Source: a virus. Taken from it: 30,724 nt of DNA. The notes under the pieces are model-generated. The model did no database searches and was not told where the DNA came from. It saw only the letters and a list, made by a program, of their open reading frames with translations. This document shows, in pieces, positions 7,590 through 30,290 of this stretch. The position numbers and the translations under genes are program-made. The stretch is from the IMG/VR virus record IMGVR_UViG_3300027963_000226, positions 1 to 30,724 of that record; one strand, written 5' to 3'. Within the stretch, counting starts at the first letter, position 1; each line of letters begins with the position of its first letter.

Positions 7590-9323
7590 ATGCTATTCCA
7601 AACTGGAAATATTTTAAGTATATGTAATAAGTCCTTAAAGCGAGGGGACTATACGGTTACGCCATTTGAATCAAATAAATTTTGGAAAATAAATACATTA
7701 GATAATTCTGCCTATTTGTATAGTAAGTTGGGTATAAAAGTTTATCGTGTATTATATCCAGAGAATCATAAATATATTGGAAGAATACTGAACATTTCTT
7801 CTTCATTATACGAAAATCATTATGTGTCACAAAGTATTGACCCAAAAGTTCTATGGTATTACTTGGACCATAATTATTATACTGATTATGATAAAAATAA
7901 ACTACCAACTAATATAACAGACTACAATACATTTACCGATTTATCTGAATCTGGTTCTATGATGACTATTCCGATGAAAGTGTTTGGTGAAGGAATACAA
8001 AAAAACTCATTTAGAATAACTAACCAAAGTACTTCTTCTATTTATCAGTATACATTGGTCGATGATGGCTATGGTAATTTAAGAGATACAACATTTGATG
8101 AAACTAAATTCATTGATAATGGCTACCTTTCATTGTATGTTGGATTTAACGAAAAATATAGAGATTATTATTTTAGAAATAAAAATGTAGATTATCTGCT
8201 AGATGCTTCCCCGTTGAGAAATGATATAGATATTATATATCCTAAAAAAATCTCATATCAACCAGGAATACCAACAACAGACACATCACAGTCAAGTGGA
8301 GTATCCGTTGCTTTAGATGGTGGCTATTTTGAAGTAAAAAATCATAAAAATTTCAATTTTGGTAAAGATAAAAACTTTGCTTTTAGTTTTTGGATAAATG
8401 TACCAATAAGTCAGTCTAATAACATCAATACATATAATTCTTTGTTTAGTAAAAATAGAATTGTAAACATAGATACATTAGATGAAACACGGCTAATTTA
8501 TACTAATAAAGATGTTACGAAATCAATTGATCGTTATCCGTTTGATATTGCAATAACAAATACTAATTCTGCGTCTCCGTATAAATTAGTCTTTAAACAA
8601 TCATCTGCATTAGAAACAAGTGAATTAACATCAAGTGTTTTAGCAACTCGTTCTTGGCATCATGTTGTTTGTCAAAAAAGTGCAAGTTATTTACAAATTT
8701 GGGTTGATGGTTCATTAAACGCATCCAAGTATAGTAAAATAACAAGAAATATACAGAACACTCATAATTTTTACATGGGTGGAAACGGTATAGATACTTT
8801 TGCTTTTTCTGGTTCTTTAGATGAGATACGTGTATATAATAGAGTTATAACAGCAGACGAAATTGGCTATCTTGCAAATAATAGCTTACAAAATGGGTAT
8901 GCATATCAGACTTCACGAGTTGGTAATATTTTTTATAAAAAAGGACTTGTTGTTGTATCGGATCCAAGACCAAAATATAAAAATTCATTAATGGGACAAA
9001 CTGGAAATCTTGATTATTCTAACGATACATATGGGTTTGATGGCGAATTCAGAGGAACAACTACTTTTTATCAATCTGAAATTATTTGTAAAATAAGAAA
9101 ATCTGAATTTAATTTTACACAGAATCCTTCTATTAGAAAAGATAAAGATAGTGAATCTATATATGTTGAAGATTACGTTACCGGATCATATTTCACTCCT
9201 TATATTACAACAATTGGCCTTTATACCGATAATAACGAATTGGTTGCTCTTGCTAAACTGGCTAATCCAATAAAGAAAAGAAAAGATGTTGATATGAATA
9301 TTATTGTACGATTTGATATGTAA
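7590..9323 (+). CDS. Virion protein: diverged YITTIGLY module with a nested LamG (concanavalin-like) domain
   Basis: This 577-residue protein begins with a diverged first half of the shared virion module (about residues 1-235, with YTLVDDGYGNL equivalent to SLIDDSG). Residues about 236-431 form a laminin-G-like jelly roll: VALDGGYFEV, FAFSFWINVP, SWHHVVCQKS...LQIWVDGSL, and AFSGSLDEIRVYNRVITADEI are classic LamG_3 signatures. The module then resumes (SLQNGY, GNIFYKKGLVVV, FNFTQNPS) and ends YITTIGLYTDNNELVALAKLANPIKK. LamG domains of this type usually bind glycans or proteins, so this copy probably presents a binding surface on the tail or capsid. The stop overlaps the next start (TAATG). I read the LamG as inserted between two strands of the module. 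Confidence 0.8.
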   Translation: MLFQTGNILSICNKSLKRGDYTVTPFESNKFWKINTLDNSAYLYSKLGIKVYRVLYPENHKYIGRILNISSSLYENHYVSQSIDPKVLWYYLDHNYYTDYDKNKLPTNITDYNTFTDLSESGSMMTIPMKVFGEGIQKNSFRITNQSTSSIYQYTLVDDGYGNLRDTTFDETKFIDNGYLSLYVGFNEKYRDYYFRNKNVDYLLDASPLRNDIDIIYPKKISYQPGIPTTDTSQSSGVSVALDGGYFEVKNHKNFNFGKDKNFAFSFWINVPISQSNNINTYNSLFSKNRIVNIDTLDETRLIYTNKDVTKSIDRYPFDIAITNTNSASPYKLVFKQSSALETSELTSSVLATRSWHHVVCQKSASYLQIWVDGSLNASKYSKITRNIQNTHNFYMGGNGIDTFAFSGSLDEIRVYNRVITADEIGYLANNSLQNGYAYQTSRVGNIFYKKGLVVVSDPRPKYKNSLMGQTGNLDYSNDTYGFDGEFRGTTTFYQSEIICKIRKSEFNFTQNPSIRKDKDSESIYVEDYVTGSYFTPYITTIGLYTDNNELVALAKLANPIKKRKDVDMNIIVRFDM

Positions 9324-26351: not shown

Positions 26352-26804
26352 ATGGATTATATATTAGTAGAAAACAATAAAATTATAGGCAATCCAAGTC
26401 CACTTCCTACTATTTGGGCAAATATTTCCAATTTTCATGTGTTAGATTCTGAGACTGTAAAACAATACGGTTGGTATCCATATAGATTTGTTACTGCAAA
26501 TATTAACGGAAACCAGGTTTATGACGGCAGTGATATTGTAATTGAAGAAACAGAAGTTGTTGAGTATCAAAAAGTTCGTAACAAAACCGAAGAAGAAATT
26601 CAAAACAATATAAATGTGCAATGGAATTCAATTAGAAATATTAGAAACGAAAAATTATTAGAGTCTGATTGGACACAATTAGCAGACTCACCGTTAGTAA
26701 ATCAAAAACAAACGGAATGGCAAATATATCGTCAAGAATTACGTGATATAACTACCCAATCTAACCCATTTTCAATAGAATGGCCAAATCCACCGGATGC
26801 ATAA
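26352..26804 (+). CDS. Phage tail (fibre) assembly chaperone-like protein
   Basis: The 150-residue protein is read from ATG 26352, in agreement with a CGGAATTAT sequence upstream; an upstream TTG at 26319 overlaps the promoter-like element and has no ribosome binding site. The C-terminal part is diagnostic: RNEKLLESDWTQLADSPL...WQIYRQELRDITTQ...WPNPP matches the phage tail assembly chaperone family (Phage_tail_APC type) that accompanies tail fibre genes. The middle contains an acidic stretch and NKTEEEIQNNINVQWNSIRN, a helix. Members help fold or trimerise fibres, so this is a plausible partner for the fibres without an S74 domain. Its last 8 bases overlap the start of the polyvalent gene. 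Confidence 0.8.
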   Translation: MDYILVENNKIIGNPSPLPTIWANISNFHVLDSETVKQYGWYPYRFVTANINGNQVYDGSDIVIEETEVVEYQKVRNKTEEEIQNNINVQWNSIRNIRNEKLLESDWTQLADSPLVNQKQTEWQIYRQELRDITTQSNPFSIEWPNPPDA

Positions 26805-29088
26805 AGTGAAAAATAAAGTATTACAATTAATAAAAGAAATGAATCTTGCTATCTTCAATGAAAATGATTTGGTAGATAAACAGATTATTGTTTTATATCC
26901 AGGTACTTTTAATCCAATGGCTTTGCACCATAAAGAAGAATATGATAGATTATGCCGTAGATTTGGTTCAGATAGTGTGTATATTGTTACCGATGATATG
27001 CAAGACGCTATTAGAAAACCACTTACGTTTGCAGAAAAAAACGCTATAATGAAACGTCATAATGTAAAGAATGTTATTAAAACAACAAATCCTTATAATC
27101 CACTTGAATTATTAGAAGACTTCGATTCAACACATACGGTAGTTATATACGCAGTTGGAAAAGATAATATCGGTAAATTAAATGAATTCAAGCGGTTAAC
27201 TAAGTATAATAAGGCTTCTAATTTACCTTATAAAGATATTCAAAATCCTTATTTATATTATGTAATTACAAATCATGTTGTTTATAATATACCCAGCTTT
27301 GGACAAATGAATCAAGAAAATATTCAAAAAGCATTGGGTGATAGAACTGCTAAACTAACAGAATTAAAATCTCGTTTTATTTCTATTTTTGGTTGGTTTG
27401 ATGCTCAGATTTTTAATACAGTTGTTGCAAGAATGAATGTAAAACGCGGTGAAATGATTGAAGTAAAAAAGAAAAAGAAAGGCGAGTTAAGACCACTTCA
27501 CATGATAACAAAAAAGTTTTGGGATAAAGTATATGAATCTGTTATAACAGAAGAAATAATAGCTTATCACAGAAGTTCAAAAAATCTTCATAAGTTTGAT
27601 ATATCAAATGTTAGTGTTGATAGTAATAGACAAAGATATGGATATGGGCTTTATTTTTCTGATAATATACCACACAATCAGTACGGTGATTACTTATATA
27701 AAGTAAAACTTTTTAAAGATAAAAAAGAATATGTTTTAATAGACACACAGAATCCAGTTGAAGAAGATATAGTTAATAAAATTGTAGAATCAATTAAGGG
27801 GTATGGTAAAAATTCTGATGAAGTTGTTAAGTTTGCTTATAGTGGTTGGTTATTTTACAAAACTTTATCAAGAATTTTAGGTGGTGATAAATACGCTTCT
27901 TTATTTTTATTTAATAATGGCGTTGATGGTTTAAAAAATAGGATAAGTAATAATTGGAATGATTATATATTATTTAATGATGATTCTATAACTATTGAAG
28001 ATATTAAATATGATAAAGTATTTGAATCTGTTATAACAGAAGAAGTAGAACAAATAAATGAAGTAGCAACATTACCGACTGGTTTATTGAAAGAAATAGA
28101 ACCAGTTGCCATAGAACTTTTTACGGAAATTGCTGATTTAATACGATTAGATTCTAGTTTTAATGGATTTAAGAGTATTATAGTTTCTAAAACCGAATCT
28201 GGACTTGAAAATCAACAATATATTACATCAATTGTAAACCGTTGGATTAGAAACGAAGACTATATTAAAAAATATGGTGAAAAAATTTCTAATAGTATTA
28301 AATTACAATCTGTTAATATTGAACTTGGAGGTTCGCTTGATGCCAAATTTCCTGAAATAACAAAAGTTTTACAGTATTGTCTTAAAAATGGTAAAGATAA
28401 AGAAAATGCAGGATTCTCTTTGGAAATAGAACATTTACTTGATACCGATTTTGATTCAGAATATGAATTAAACAATAAAATAAATTATACAAAATTTAAT
28501 TCTGAGTTGACACAATTTTCTACAAATAGTGATGAGTTCTCTGGCGGTGCTTCGATGGGGACTTCTGGTGCTAACCCTTTGGATAATATGGAATTTGCAA
28601 TATATTTCACACTTGAATTTGTTCCATTCTTTGTAAAGATACAACTTGCAAAGCGTGGTTCAATTGAAACTTCCGTTGATAGTATAATATCAGAATTTGT
28701 TAAGAAAGTATTTTTACCTGCTATTGCACATGAGTTGATACATTATGTACAAAGAGTAAAGGAATTTTTAAATTCTTTTACAATTAAGCCGACCACATAT
28801 AATCGTTTATCGCAAGATGATCCAAATTTTTGGAAAACATATTTGTCTGATACTATGGAAATTGGTGCTCATGCAGAAGAATTTGTAGAACAAATGAGAT
28901 CGAATTTTCCAATGGAAACTGATAAATCAATATTGAAAATGTTACAATACAATGAAATACCACCTGATGCATCAGACGCACTAAAAAAATATTACAATGC
29001 GTTTTTCAAGGAAATGGGTAATAGCCCAAATGATCCAGTTAAGAAAAGATTTATAAAAACAGTTTATCAAATCATAGATAAAAGTTAA
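26797..29088 (+). CDS. Polyvalent protein: nucleotidyltransferase-like, ADP-ribosyltransferase-like and HExxH metallopeptidase-like domains with I-x-E boundaries
   Basis: This 763-residue protein has three domains. Residues about 28-185 resemble HIGH-superfamily nucleotidyltransferases (VLYPGTFNPMALHH at 32-45, then VYIVTDD and RKPLTFAEKNAIM), but the HxGH motif reads ALHH. Residues about 253-402 match phage polyvalent ADP-ribosyltransferases: AYHRSSKNLHKFD (H258), RYGYGLYFSDN (Y286), and GVDGL...DYILFNDDSITI. Residues about 423-763 hold AHELIHYVQ (H645, E646, H649) and EIGAHAEEF (E688), zincin-like ligands. Sequences IKE (12-14), ITE (250-252) and ITE (413-415) fit the T4 prohead-protease specificity (L/I)xE and lie at the N-terminus and both edges of the ADP-ribosyltransferase. 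The start at ATG 26797 overlaps the chaperone stop; GTG 26806 is an alternative. I infer a packaged, processed effector like T4 Alt; processing is unproven. Confidence 0.75.
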   Translation: MHKVKNKVLQLIKEMNLAIFNENDLVDKQIIVLYPGTFNPMALHHKEEYDRLCRRFGSDSVYIVTDDMQDAIRKPLTFAEKNAIMKRHNVKNVIKTTNPYNPLELLEDFDSTHTVVIYAVGKDNIGKLNEFKRLTKYNKASNLPYKDIQNPYLYYVITNHVVYNIPSFGQMNQENIQKALGDRTAKLTELKSRFISIFGWFDAQIFNTVVARMNVKRGEMIEVKKKKKGELRPLHMITKKFWDKVYESVITEEIIAYHRSSKNLHKFDISNVSVDSNRQRYGYGLYFSDNIPHNQYGDYLYKVKLFKDKKEYVLIDTQNPVEEDIVNKIVESIKGYGKNSDEVVKFAYSGWLFYKTLSRILGGDKYASLFLFNNGVDGLKNRISNNWNDYILFNDDSITIEDIKYDKVFESVITEEVEQINEVATLPTGLLKEIEPVAIELFTEIADLIRLDSSFNGFKSIIVSKTESGLENQQYITSIVNRWIRNEDYIKKYGEKISNSIKLQSVNIELGGSLDAKFPEITKVLQYCLKNGKDKENAGFSLEIEHLLDTDFDSEYELNNKINYTKFNSELTQFSTNSDEFSGGASMGTSGANPLDNMEFAIYFTLEFVPFFVKIQLAKRGSIETSVDSIISEFVKKVFLPAIAHELIHYVQRVKEFLNSFTIKPTTYNRLSQDDPNFWKTYLSDTMEIGAHAEEFVEQMRSNFPMETDKSILKMLQYNEIPPDASDALKKYYNAFFKEMGNSPNDPVKKRFIKTVYQIIDKS
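27523..27555 (+). repeat. 33-nt direct repeat at the front edge of the ADP-ribosyltransferase domain
   Basis: It encodes DKVYESVITEE. It matches 28012-28044 (DKVFESVITEE) with one base difference. The two copies bracket the ADP-ribosyltransferase-like segment. Confidence 0.92.
28012..28044 (+). repeat. 33-nt direct repeat at the rear edge of the ADP-ribosyltransferase domain
   Basis: This is the second copy of 27523-27555 (one mismatch, A/T at the Tyr/Phe codon). It is followed by a further I-x-E (INE, residues 420-422). Confidence 0.92.
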
Positions 29089-29110: not shown

Positions 29111-29752
29111 ATGGAAATAAAAATTGAGAATATACAAGATGTTAAAAAACTTCTTGCAGGTGAACACGATAGTCAGAATAAAGTTCAAATCGGTTATGTA
29201 GGTGAAAAATTAGAAGATACAGAAACAAGAAAAGTTGGTGATAAATGGTTTGATTCTGATGGAAATGAATGGGAACAAAAGAATGGATACAAAGTAAAAC
29301 TTGGAAAACAATGGCAACAAGAATTACATCAGTATTTAACTACATTCAAAAATTGTCCAAAAGAAACTTGTACTTGTTCAATGCCAAAGCGATTGGATGA
29401 AAAAATGAGAACTATTCATGGAATGTGTTTTGATTGTGCAATTGATATGGAACATAAAATTCGTTTAGAAGGTAAGTGGGATGAATATGAAAACAGAAAA
29501 GTAAAAGAAAACGCATTAGCGTGGTTAGTTGAAGCAGAGAGAGATAAAAATGTAGTAGCAGAGGAATTGTCTAAAGTAGATTTTGCTAATTCTTTCGGTG
29601 ATTCTGAAAAATGGAATGTTCCAATAAGTAAAGATGAATTATTAGAAAAAATAGAAAAGGAATTTGAAGAGTTTAGAAAAAACTTTATTGCAAAGTTGGA
29701 AAATGGAGAACAGAATGAAACAGTTAATAGTAGAGCGAGCAGTACCAACTAA
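29111..29752 (+). CDS. Cys-cluster (zinc-finger-like) phage protein
   Basis: The 213-residue protein starts at ATG 29111 after AAAAGGTTATGTT. An N-terminal domain includes RKVGDKWFDSDGNEWEQKNGYK (about 40-61), a pattern I recall from hypothetical phage proteins. Residues 82-109 carry C82, C87, C89, C106 and C109 (CPKETCTC...HGMCFDC), most likely one zinc site. The remainder is charged and helical, ending in a probable coiled coil (KDELLEKIEKEFEEFRKNFIAKLENGE). There is no enzyme motif. It lies 22 bases after the polyvalent gene and its last 38 bases overlap the next gene, so the three are probably one operon. The role is unknown; DNA or protein binding is possible. Confidence 0.7.
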   Translation: MEIKIENIQDVKKLLAGEHDSQNKVQIGYVGEKLEDTETRKVGDKWFDSDGNEWEQKNGYKVKLGKQWQQELHQYLTTFKNCPKETCTCSMPKRLDEKMRTIHGMCFDCAIDMEHKIRLEGKWDEYENRKVKENALAWLVEAERDKNVVAEELSKVDFANSFGDSEKWNVPISKDELLEKIEKEFEEFRKNFIAKLENGEQNETVNSRASSTN

Positions 29753-30290
29753 CAAGAAATTATACTCTAGTATAAAATCTCGTGTTAAAAAAAGATTTAA
29801 GGTATGGCCAAGTGCGTATGCTTCCGCTGCATTAGTAAAAGCATACAAAAAAGCAGGCGGAGGATATAGAACTGTTAAGGAAACTATTCAAAATCCGCAA
29901 TATACATTAGAAGGATTTGCAACTGATTGTAGTGATTCAATTGTTGAATTACATTTCAAACTCGGTGAAGGTACAAAAGAAAATTTAACAGAAGCAAAAT
30001 ACCGTGGAAGAAAAGTTTCACTTGGTAAACCATTCAGAACACCAGGTGGACCAAAGAAATTTTCTGTTTATGTAAGAAAACCAAACGGAAATATAGTAAA
30101 AGTAAACTTTGGACATAAAGGAAAAGGCGGTGAAAAAACAATGCGTATAAAGAAAAGTAACCCTACTCGTAGAAAAGCGTTTCGTTCAAGGCACAATTGT
30201 CAATCACCTGGCCCAAGAGATAAAGCGAGATATTGGTCATGCCGTTTTGGGTGGCCATCATCTGGCAAAGGTGCAATAGATAAAACATAA
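29715..30290 (+). CDS. Two-domain basic phage protein (DUF5872-like N-terminus, Arg/Lys-rich Cys-His C-terminus)
   Basis: The 191-residue protein is read from ATG 29715, with GGAGAA 6 bases upstream inside the previous gene; a TTG at 29664 would extend it without a site. Residues about 10-55 (TNKKLYSSIKSRVKKRFKVWPSAYASAAL...KAGGGY) resemble DUF5872, a domain shared by phages and large DNA viruses. Residues about 94-180 are strongly basic with KKFSVYVRKPNGNIVKVNFG, a R-R-K-A-F-R-S-R-H-N-C motif (H160, C162) and ARYWSCRFGW (C176), a module I recall from many marine-type phages. L91-T92-E93 at the domain junction and I5-V6-E7 at the N-terminus fit the (L/I)xE protease rule. High basicity would suit a DNA-bound, head-packaged protein; this is inference. 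Confidence 0.75.
   Translation: MKQLIVERAVPTNKKLYSSIKSRVKKRFKVWPSAYASAALVKAYKKAGGGYRTVKETIQNPQYTLEGFATDCSDSIVELHFKLGEGTKENLTEAKYRGRKVSLGKPFRTPGGPKKFSVYVRKPNGNIVKVNFGHKGKGGEKTMRIKKSNPTRRKAFRSRHNCQSPGPRDKARYWSCRFGWPSSGKGAIDKT

Follow-up and report, generated by a model that had tools for sequence, protein, structure and literature searches.

A probable effector polyprotein of a T4-like phage with prohead-protease-type sites at its module junctions

The IMG/VR virus record IMGVR_UViG_3300027963_000226 (30,724 bp; the whole stretch is referred to here as the window) encodes a protein of 763 amino acids in one open frame (26797..29088, + strand), which, judged from its sequence, is probably an effector polyprotein that is packaged into the head and cleaved by the prohead protease of the same phage. 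An earlier note on this DNA had described three effector-like domains in the frame, with I-x-E tripeptides at the N-terminus and at both edges of the middle domain. The single frame and the tripeptides are present as described, with IKE, ITE and ITE ending at residues 14, 252 and 415. From its N-terminus the protein comprises a capsid-targeting-like peptide ending in LIKE (residues 1-14, 26797..26838), a nucleotidyltransferase (NT)-fold module (residues 26-220, 26872..27456), a first linker ending in VITE at E252 (27457..27552, putative cut site 1), an ADP-ribosyltransferase (ART)-like module (residues 253-407, 27553..28017), a second linker with VITE at E415 and INE at E422 (28018..28062, putative cut site 2) and a putative metallopeptidase module (residues 423-763, 28063..29085), all on the + strand. 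Translation may begin not at the ATG at 26797 but at a GTG at 26806.

The named sites are a selection, as the protein holds ten [LI]xE tripeptides, six of them I-x-E. The stricter pattern [LIVMF][LI]xE occurs five times (LIKE11, VITE249, VITE412, LLKE430 and IISE630). An AlphaFold model built from 51 alignment rows (mean predicted local distance difference test score (pLDDT) 67.9, predicted template modelling score 0.47) is mostly confident in the NT module (about 26-220) and the peptidase module (423-763) and falls below a pLDDT of 50 at residues 1-5, 10-25, 221-238, 250-352, 362-364, 384-396, 404-421 and 592-595. These stretches hold all of LIKE and of the second VITE and three of the four residues of the first VITE; LLKE and IISE sit in helices outside them. 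Motifs fell at all three module edges in 3 of 20,000 shuffled sequences, a figure that is only indicative because the edges were set after the motifs had been seen. Both internal sites lie within a near-identical repeat, in which ESVITEE occurs twice. At the DNA level the two copies (27523..27558 and 28012..28047, + strand) span 36 nt, are 94% identical and lie 489 nt apart. Such a repeat is not a product of chance.

Relatives of the protein gain and lose modules at these junctions. They were collected with the NT module (best 80 of 99 loci) and with a conserved gene located 3' of the polyprotein gene (best 80 of at least 506 loci), and all counts describe the nearer relatives among the matches listed. 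At this locus, the NT module occurs alone, with the ART module, with the peptidase module, with both, or with other modules. Distinct open reading frames (ORFs) with NT only number 48 complete and 4 open; one combines NT and ART, eight (5 complete, 3 open) carry NT, ART and peptidase, and six (3 complete, 3 open) NT and peptidase. A further 9 complete and 2 open ORFs join NT to a domain that we call HPFDD, with or without a domain in between, including those of Microcystis phage Mel-JY01 and LR756508. In L008/L033, L030, L031 and L032 the ART module is absent as one unit and a single KV[FY]E[SP]V[IL]TEE is left. An [LI]xE tripeptide directly follows FWxKV[YF] in 15/15 sequences with an ART or peptidase module and in 0/48 complete NT-only sequences, which bears out the placement of the sites at module junctions. 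The linker motif outlasts divergence as ITE, LTE, ISE or INE, forms that are also found at the edge of the peptidase module, and inspection by eye of the region behind the NT domain of the NT+HPFDD proteins revealed [LI]xE in 9/11.

Some single relatives are worth describing in their own right. The NT+ART protein L041:69-1307 ends right after KVFENVITEE, keeping the junction site with nothing behind it. A stand-alone ART protein that is 72% identical to the module (L247) starts with MKLKTILE and ends with IKYDPY, where linker 2 of the window begins. In L132:1865-2206 the domain between NT and HPFDD contains an IPIPGTMLLIP stretch and looks LETM1-like by eye.

A protease that could read these sites is encoded by the same phage. 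The whole window recurs with 100% identity, in a match split in three by the use of 20-kb query pieces, within a 177,312-bp IMG/VR contig (G004). The contig is T4-like, with PHROG matches for its portal (E 3e-67), S77 head maturation protease (E 4e-55) and major head protein (E 5e-72). The window itself lacks an S77 prohead protease, and the 177-kb contig containing the same sequence supplies it; the earlier note had suggested a search for such an enzyme elsewhere in the genome. The gp21-like enzyme (S77, E 8.2e-31; PHROG head maturation protease, E 3.7e-55) is encoded at 71,632-72,303 of the contig, about 8 kb from the polyprotein gene. It keeps H85 and S140 of T4 gp21, which we take to be catalytic. 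A first search found the protease in 2 of 10 records, the other eight, the window among them, being records of 4-60 kb. It was present in 17 of 19 further picked records, mostly long contigs, and both misses had been reached via the stand-alone ART relatives L247 and L299. In the capsid protein of the phage, QLIDE|SNRTG (LIDE60) aligns with LTE65 of T4 gp23, whose propeptide is given as 65 residues (PMC9026906). Because LIDE stands at the cut position of T4 gp23, the LIKE and VITE forms of the polyprotein fit the cut site predicted for this phage.

The N-terminal peptide matches the type of about ten residues ending in [LI]xE, with E14 kept in 44/44 alignment rows that reach it and I or L at P3 in 39/44. 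Among ORFs of at least 90 amino acids on the 177-kb contig, picked mechanically together with their start codons, an N-terminal [LIVMF][LI]xE is found in 30/168, as compared to 7.8 +/- 2.5 in internal windows (maximum 16, 500 draws; 7.9 +/- 2.7, maximum 20, when the draw was repeated). The 30 ORFs include ART-PolyVal-like, zeta-toxin-like, SAM-lyase-like and DUF2608 proteins, and chance surely accounts for some of them. As a general marker the N-terminal motif count was rejected. It is strong in this phage, weak in Mel-JY01 and in parts of T4 and at background in crAss001 (2/42 versus 1.8, first 50 kb), T7 (1/34 versus 1.3) and lambda (0/55 versus 0.9), all small numbers.

The same rule holds at another junction. 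The HPFDD domain has no Pfam or PHROG match. In the best 80 of at least 550 HPFDD loci we read the ten residues before the GG[AVL]xG[HR]M start; after removal of duplicates and of L177, L189, L204, L214 and L235, where the upstream sequence was missing or short, 56 distinct sequences remained. P3 is L or I in 56/56, P1 is E in 47/56 (M in 5, C in 4) and P4 is mostly L, with P2 and the positions upstream of P4 varying; the background rate of [LIVMF][LI]xE in the HPFDD proteins overall is 0.0034 per residue. Junctions with M or C at P1, such as LLLM|GG or LLTC|GG (L163, L185, L206, L240 and others), still have hydrophobic residues at P3 and P4 and are perhaps uncut or the remnant of an internal start. 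Some HPFDD proteins exceed 1,300 amino acids and carry P-loop-kinase-like and NT-like modules, named by eye. Among the loci L163-L241, marine polyproteins of more than 1,200 amino acids (e.g. L200, L228 and L238) combine, again by eye, P-loop-kinase-like, NT-like and ParB-like modules with a C-terminal HPFDD domain.

We infer the following sequence of targeting, cutting, retention and injection, together with the enzymatic roles of the pieces. Residues 1-14, like a T4 capsid-targeting sequence, would draw the precursor into the prohead core, where the S77 prohead protease would cut after E14, E252 and E415, and perhaps also after E422. Cutting would free three proteins: one with the NT fold, an ADP-ribosyltransferase and, from the C-terminal part, a putative metallopeptidase. 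All three would remain in the head and enter the host along with the DNA. The linker KV[YF]ESVITEE would serve as a module connector, and recombination at the repeats could therefore add or remove whole effectors. The most economical account is that of a polyvalent-type effector protein which follows the targeting-and-processing route of T4 and joins several cargo modules in each precursor.

Other explanations have to be weighed against this one. The repeated linker might be a recombination scar and flexible tether, with the protein staying full length in virion or cell and the I-x-E match being incidental. The DNA repeats that flank the ART module would suit such a scar, as would a linker common to close relatives by descent and the similar stretch, KVYNEIIK, in which most NT-only proteins end. 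However, [LI]xE remains even with a diverged linker around it (VISEN..INE, VINEVAMLPP and VLTEE), it recurs at the unrelated HPFDD junction despite the variable P2 and positions upstream of P4, and the glutamate of the N-terminal site is invariant in the rows aligned, so that we regard this explanation as unlikely. It is somewhat less probable still that the packaged protein is processed by its own C-terminal metallopeptidase module, the mechanism that Iyer et al. (PMC5512222) put forward for P1 DdrB and other polyvalent proteins. An HExxH module is indeed present in the 763-residue protein, but sites of the same pattern occur in the NT+ART protein L041, which has no peptidase, and in the HPFDD proteins, where HExxH is found in 0/68 distinct sequences, 32 of them truncated 5' by the contig edge. 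This occurrence of one kind of site in proteins without HExxH therefore points to the prohead protease, and the sites also match the probable capsid site of the phage. Finally, the protein might be an ordinary multidomain enzyme, made late and active in the infected cell without being packaged. The match of the NT module to PHROG_395, a cytidyltransferase family filed under 'other', would agree with this, but the gene is located between a tail-fibre-assembly gene and the portal, protease and capsid genes, its counterpart in Mel-JY01 stands beside terminase and head genes, and the N-terminus is targeting-like. We consider an unpackaged enzyme very improbable.

Several observations weigh against cutting by the prohead protease or limit the evidence for it. 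The presence and absence counts come from related sequences rather than from independent events, and similarity of the linkers could be maintained by the DNA repeat alone. The three main sites have M or E at P1', P3 of the N-terminal site is V or M in 4/44 rows and T in one, and in 2/11 NT+HPFDD proteins (L132 and L137) the first tripeptide after NT is VKE and not [LI]xE. At the HPFDD junction P1 is M or C in 9/56 sequences, and the truncation of 32/68 HPFDD proteins limits what the missing HExxH can tell. N-terminal enrichment is weak in Mel-JY01 (17/212 versus a random mean of 9.7, maximum 18) and in the parts of T4 analysed (6/71 versus a mean of 3.1, maximum 9), where the six ORFs, named by length, include IPII, IPIII, gp21, gp22 and a cut-off gp24. 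In Flavobacterium phage immuto the corresponding place is taken by a 907-residue protein, gp088, which carries the annotation NMN adenylyltransferase and lies one gene ahead of a distant homologue of the conserved gene. It has no tblastn match to the 763-residue protein, and [LI]xE is missing from its N-terminal 20 residues. Because of the missing match, it counts as an analogue in place and annotation alone.

The three modules differ in how well they can be assigned. The model of the NT module superimposes on 1f9a, which has the NMNAT/PPAT fold (Z 12.4, root mean square deviation 2.8, 149 residues aligned), and its sequence matches PHROG_395 with an E-value of 2.6e-4. The second motif of NMNAT/PPAT adenylyltransferases is of the ISxTxxR type. 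It is degenerate in the window, where NQENIQ stands in place of the SGTNIR kept by the HPFDD-type relatives and Mel-JY01, and catalysis by this module appears doubtful for that reason. Hence, the proposed membership of the NMNAT superfamily stands with regard to the fold, while the idea of a working NMNAT that supplies linked nicotinamide adenine dinucleotide chemistry was dropped, as the motif is degenerate in the lineage.

The ART assignment is suggested by motifs (YHRS, GYGLYF and NDYILF) and by profile similarity. A profile of four ART-module sequences reaches an ART-PolyVal-like protein of the same phage with E 4.3e-8 within a small set (the ORFs of the 177-kb contig and the ART loci), and that protein matches PF18760 below the cut-off (22.1 versus 31.2 bits, E 2.9e-4). 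The module itself has no Pfam ART match, its part of the AlphaFold model is of low confidence, and neither it nor the peptidase module found a convincing family in Pfam, PHROGs or PDB-sequence searches. By inspection the R-S-E active site of the Alt type is replaced by YHRS/GYGLYF/NDYILF. An ART domain had been expected, and the profile match backs it; its likeness to T4 Alt does not extend to the motifs. A match of the polyprotein to PHROG_20911 (tail spike, E 0.03-0.06) was taken as chance.

Further small proteins of the same phage have MIKLKxLLKE-type N-termini (L016:11370-11873, L017:1868-2494, and L023:6614-7207 and 8126-8767, - strand). Two are ART-PolyVal-like, one is S-AdoMet-lyase-like and one has YHFS, and two resemble, by eye, Mel-JY01 proteins with the same kind of N-terminus. 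Between the protease and capsid genes of the 177-kb contig lies a gene (L019:9754-10764, - strand) whose 337-residue product has an acidic stretch in addition to a targeting-like N-terminus. The C-terminal end of this protein resembles an R-S-E ART by eye (YRT, STS and ETE); Pfam gave no support.

Zincins carry HExxH with an acidic ligand downstream. In agreement with this, HELIH (residues 645-649, 28729..28743, + strand) and EIGAHA are both kept in 6/6 rows. Folded alone from a shallow alignment, the module found no PDB match at E<=0.001 in Foldseek (best viral match E 0.17, best Z 4.0), which is no evidence against a zincin. It is the HExxH motif by itself that suggests a peptidase, and of the proposed zincin-type metallopeptidase the motif is confirmed and the fold is not. 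Homology of this module to the Flavobacterium phage protein is not claimed because the profile comparison aligned 20 columns around HExxH with a probability of 8%. A scan with the peptidase profile returned 13 loci, and architecture was viewed for the subset in which an NT module is present as well.

In the window, tail-fibre, methyltransferase and tail-fibre-assembly genes precede the polyprotein gene. It is followed by the conserved gene (29111..29752, + strand), which has relatives at this locus in distant phages too, and by a DUF5872 gene (29703..30290, + strand) whose product has a second targeting-like N-terminus, MENRMKQLIVE. In the isolate Mel-JY01 the annotated order is polyprotein, conserved gene, terminase, protease and capsid.

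The multi-module design recurs in many related environmental phages. We lean slightly towards the view that in the T4-like phages of aquatic bacteria short prohead-protease-readable cassettes generally connect exchangeable injected enzymes (NT, ART, peptidase, kinase-like, HPFDD and others), giving precursors that reach about 1,400 residues, and that the same enzymes also occur singly, each gene then encoding a targeting peptide of its own. If true, such a module-connector system would give DNA viruses an equivalent of the polyproteins of RNA viruses, one that loads effectors into the head at a fixed ratio. The T4-like head protease would go beyond shell maturation and make several injected proteins from one gene, and its cut sites would allow cassette-like swaps of effectors. 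The mostly unknown cargo of environmental T4-like phages would then be predictable from N-terminal and junction [LI]xE, which is testable in isolates like Mel-JY01. Among the open-access papers listed, titles and the beginnings of abstracts contained no report of an effector polyprotein cut by a prohead protease; subscription papers and most preprints lay outside this scope.

Among known systems, the internal proteins and Alt of T4 share with the 763-residue protein a short N-terminal peptide ending in [LI]xE, an S77 protease of the same phage and effector-like cargo including an ART. They differ in that the present precursor unites several cargo modules and contains internal sites. Its ART motifs belong to the H-Y polyvalent type, in contrast to the R-S-E type of Alt (clade description in PMC5512222), and for Alt the accessible part of PMC9026906 describes the loss of both termini and no division into modules. 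Polyvalent proteins, which are predicted to be packaged, are phage proteins composed of several domains, ARTs and zincin-like peptidases among them; release by embedded zincins and the polyprotein analogy have already been put forward for them (Iyer et al., 2017; PMC5512222). The protein described here likewise combines several conflict-type domains in one polypeptide, namely an NT fold and ART-like and HExxH modules that are unconfirmed by fold, but its putative cut sites suit the prohead protease rather than an embedded peptidase, and modules are exchanged at those sites. Head maturation in the giant phages SPN3US and phiKZ also involves proteolytic cuts behind a short motif whose last residue is E (A-x-E in SPN3US), but the accessible part of that work describes removal of propeptides and no multi-enzyme precursor (PMC10052503). 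A further one is the cytidylyltransferase-like protein WWT39297.1 of Mel-JY01, 639 residues long, which has an N-terminal LLSE, a homologous NT module (45% over residues 11-216) at the same locus and IIAE before its next module, which starts with GGLGGHM; there, the second module is an HPFDD domain instead of ART and peptidase.

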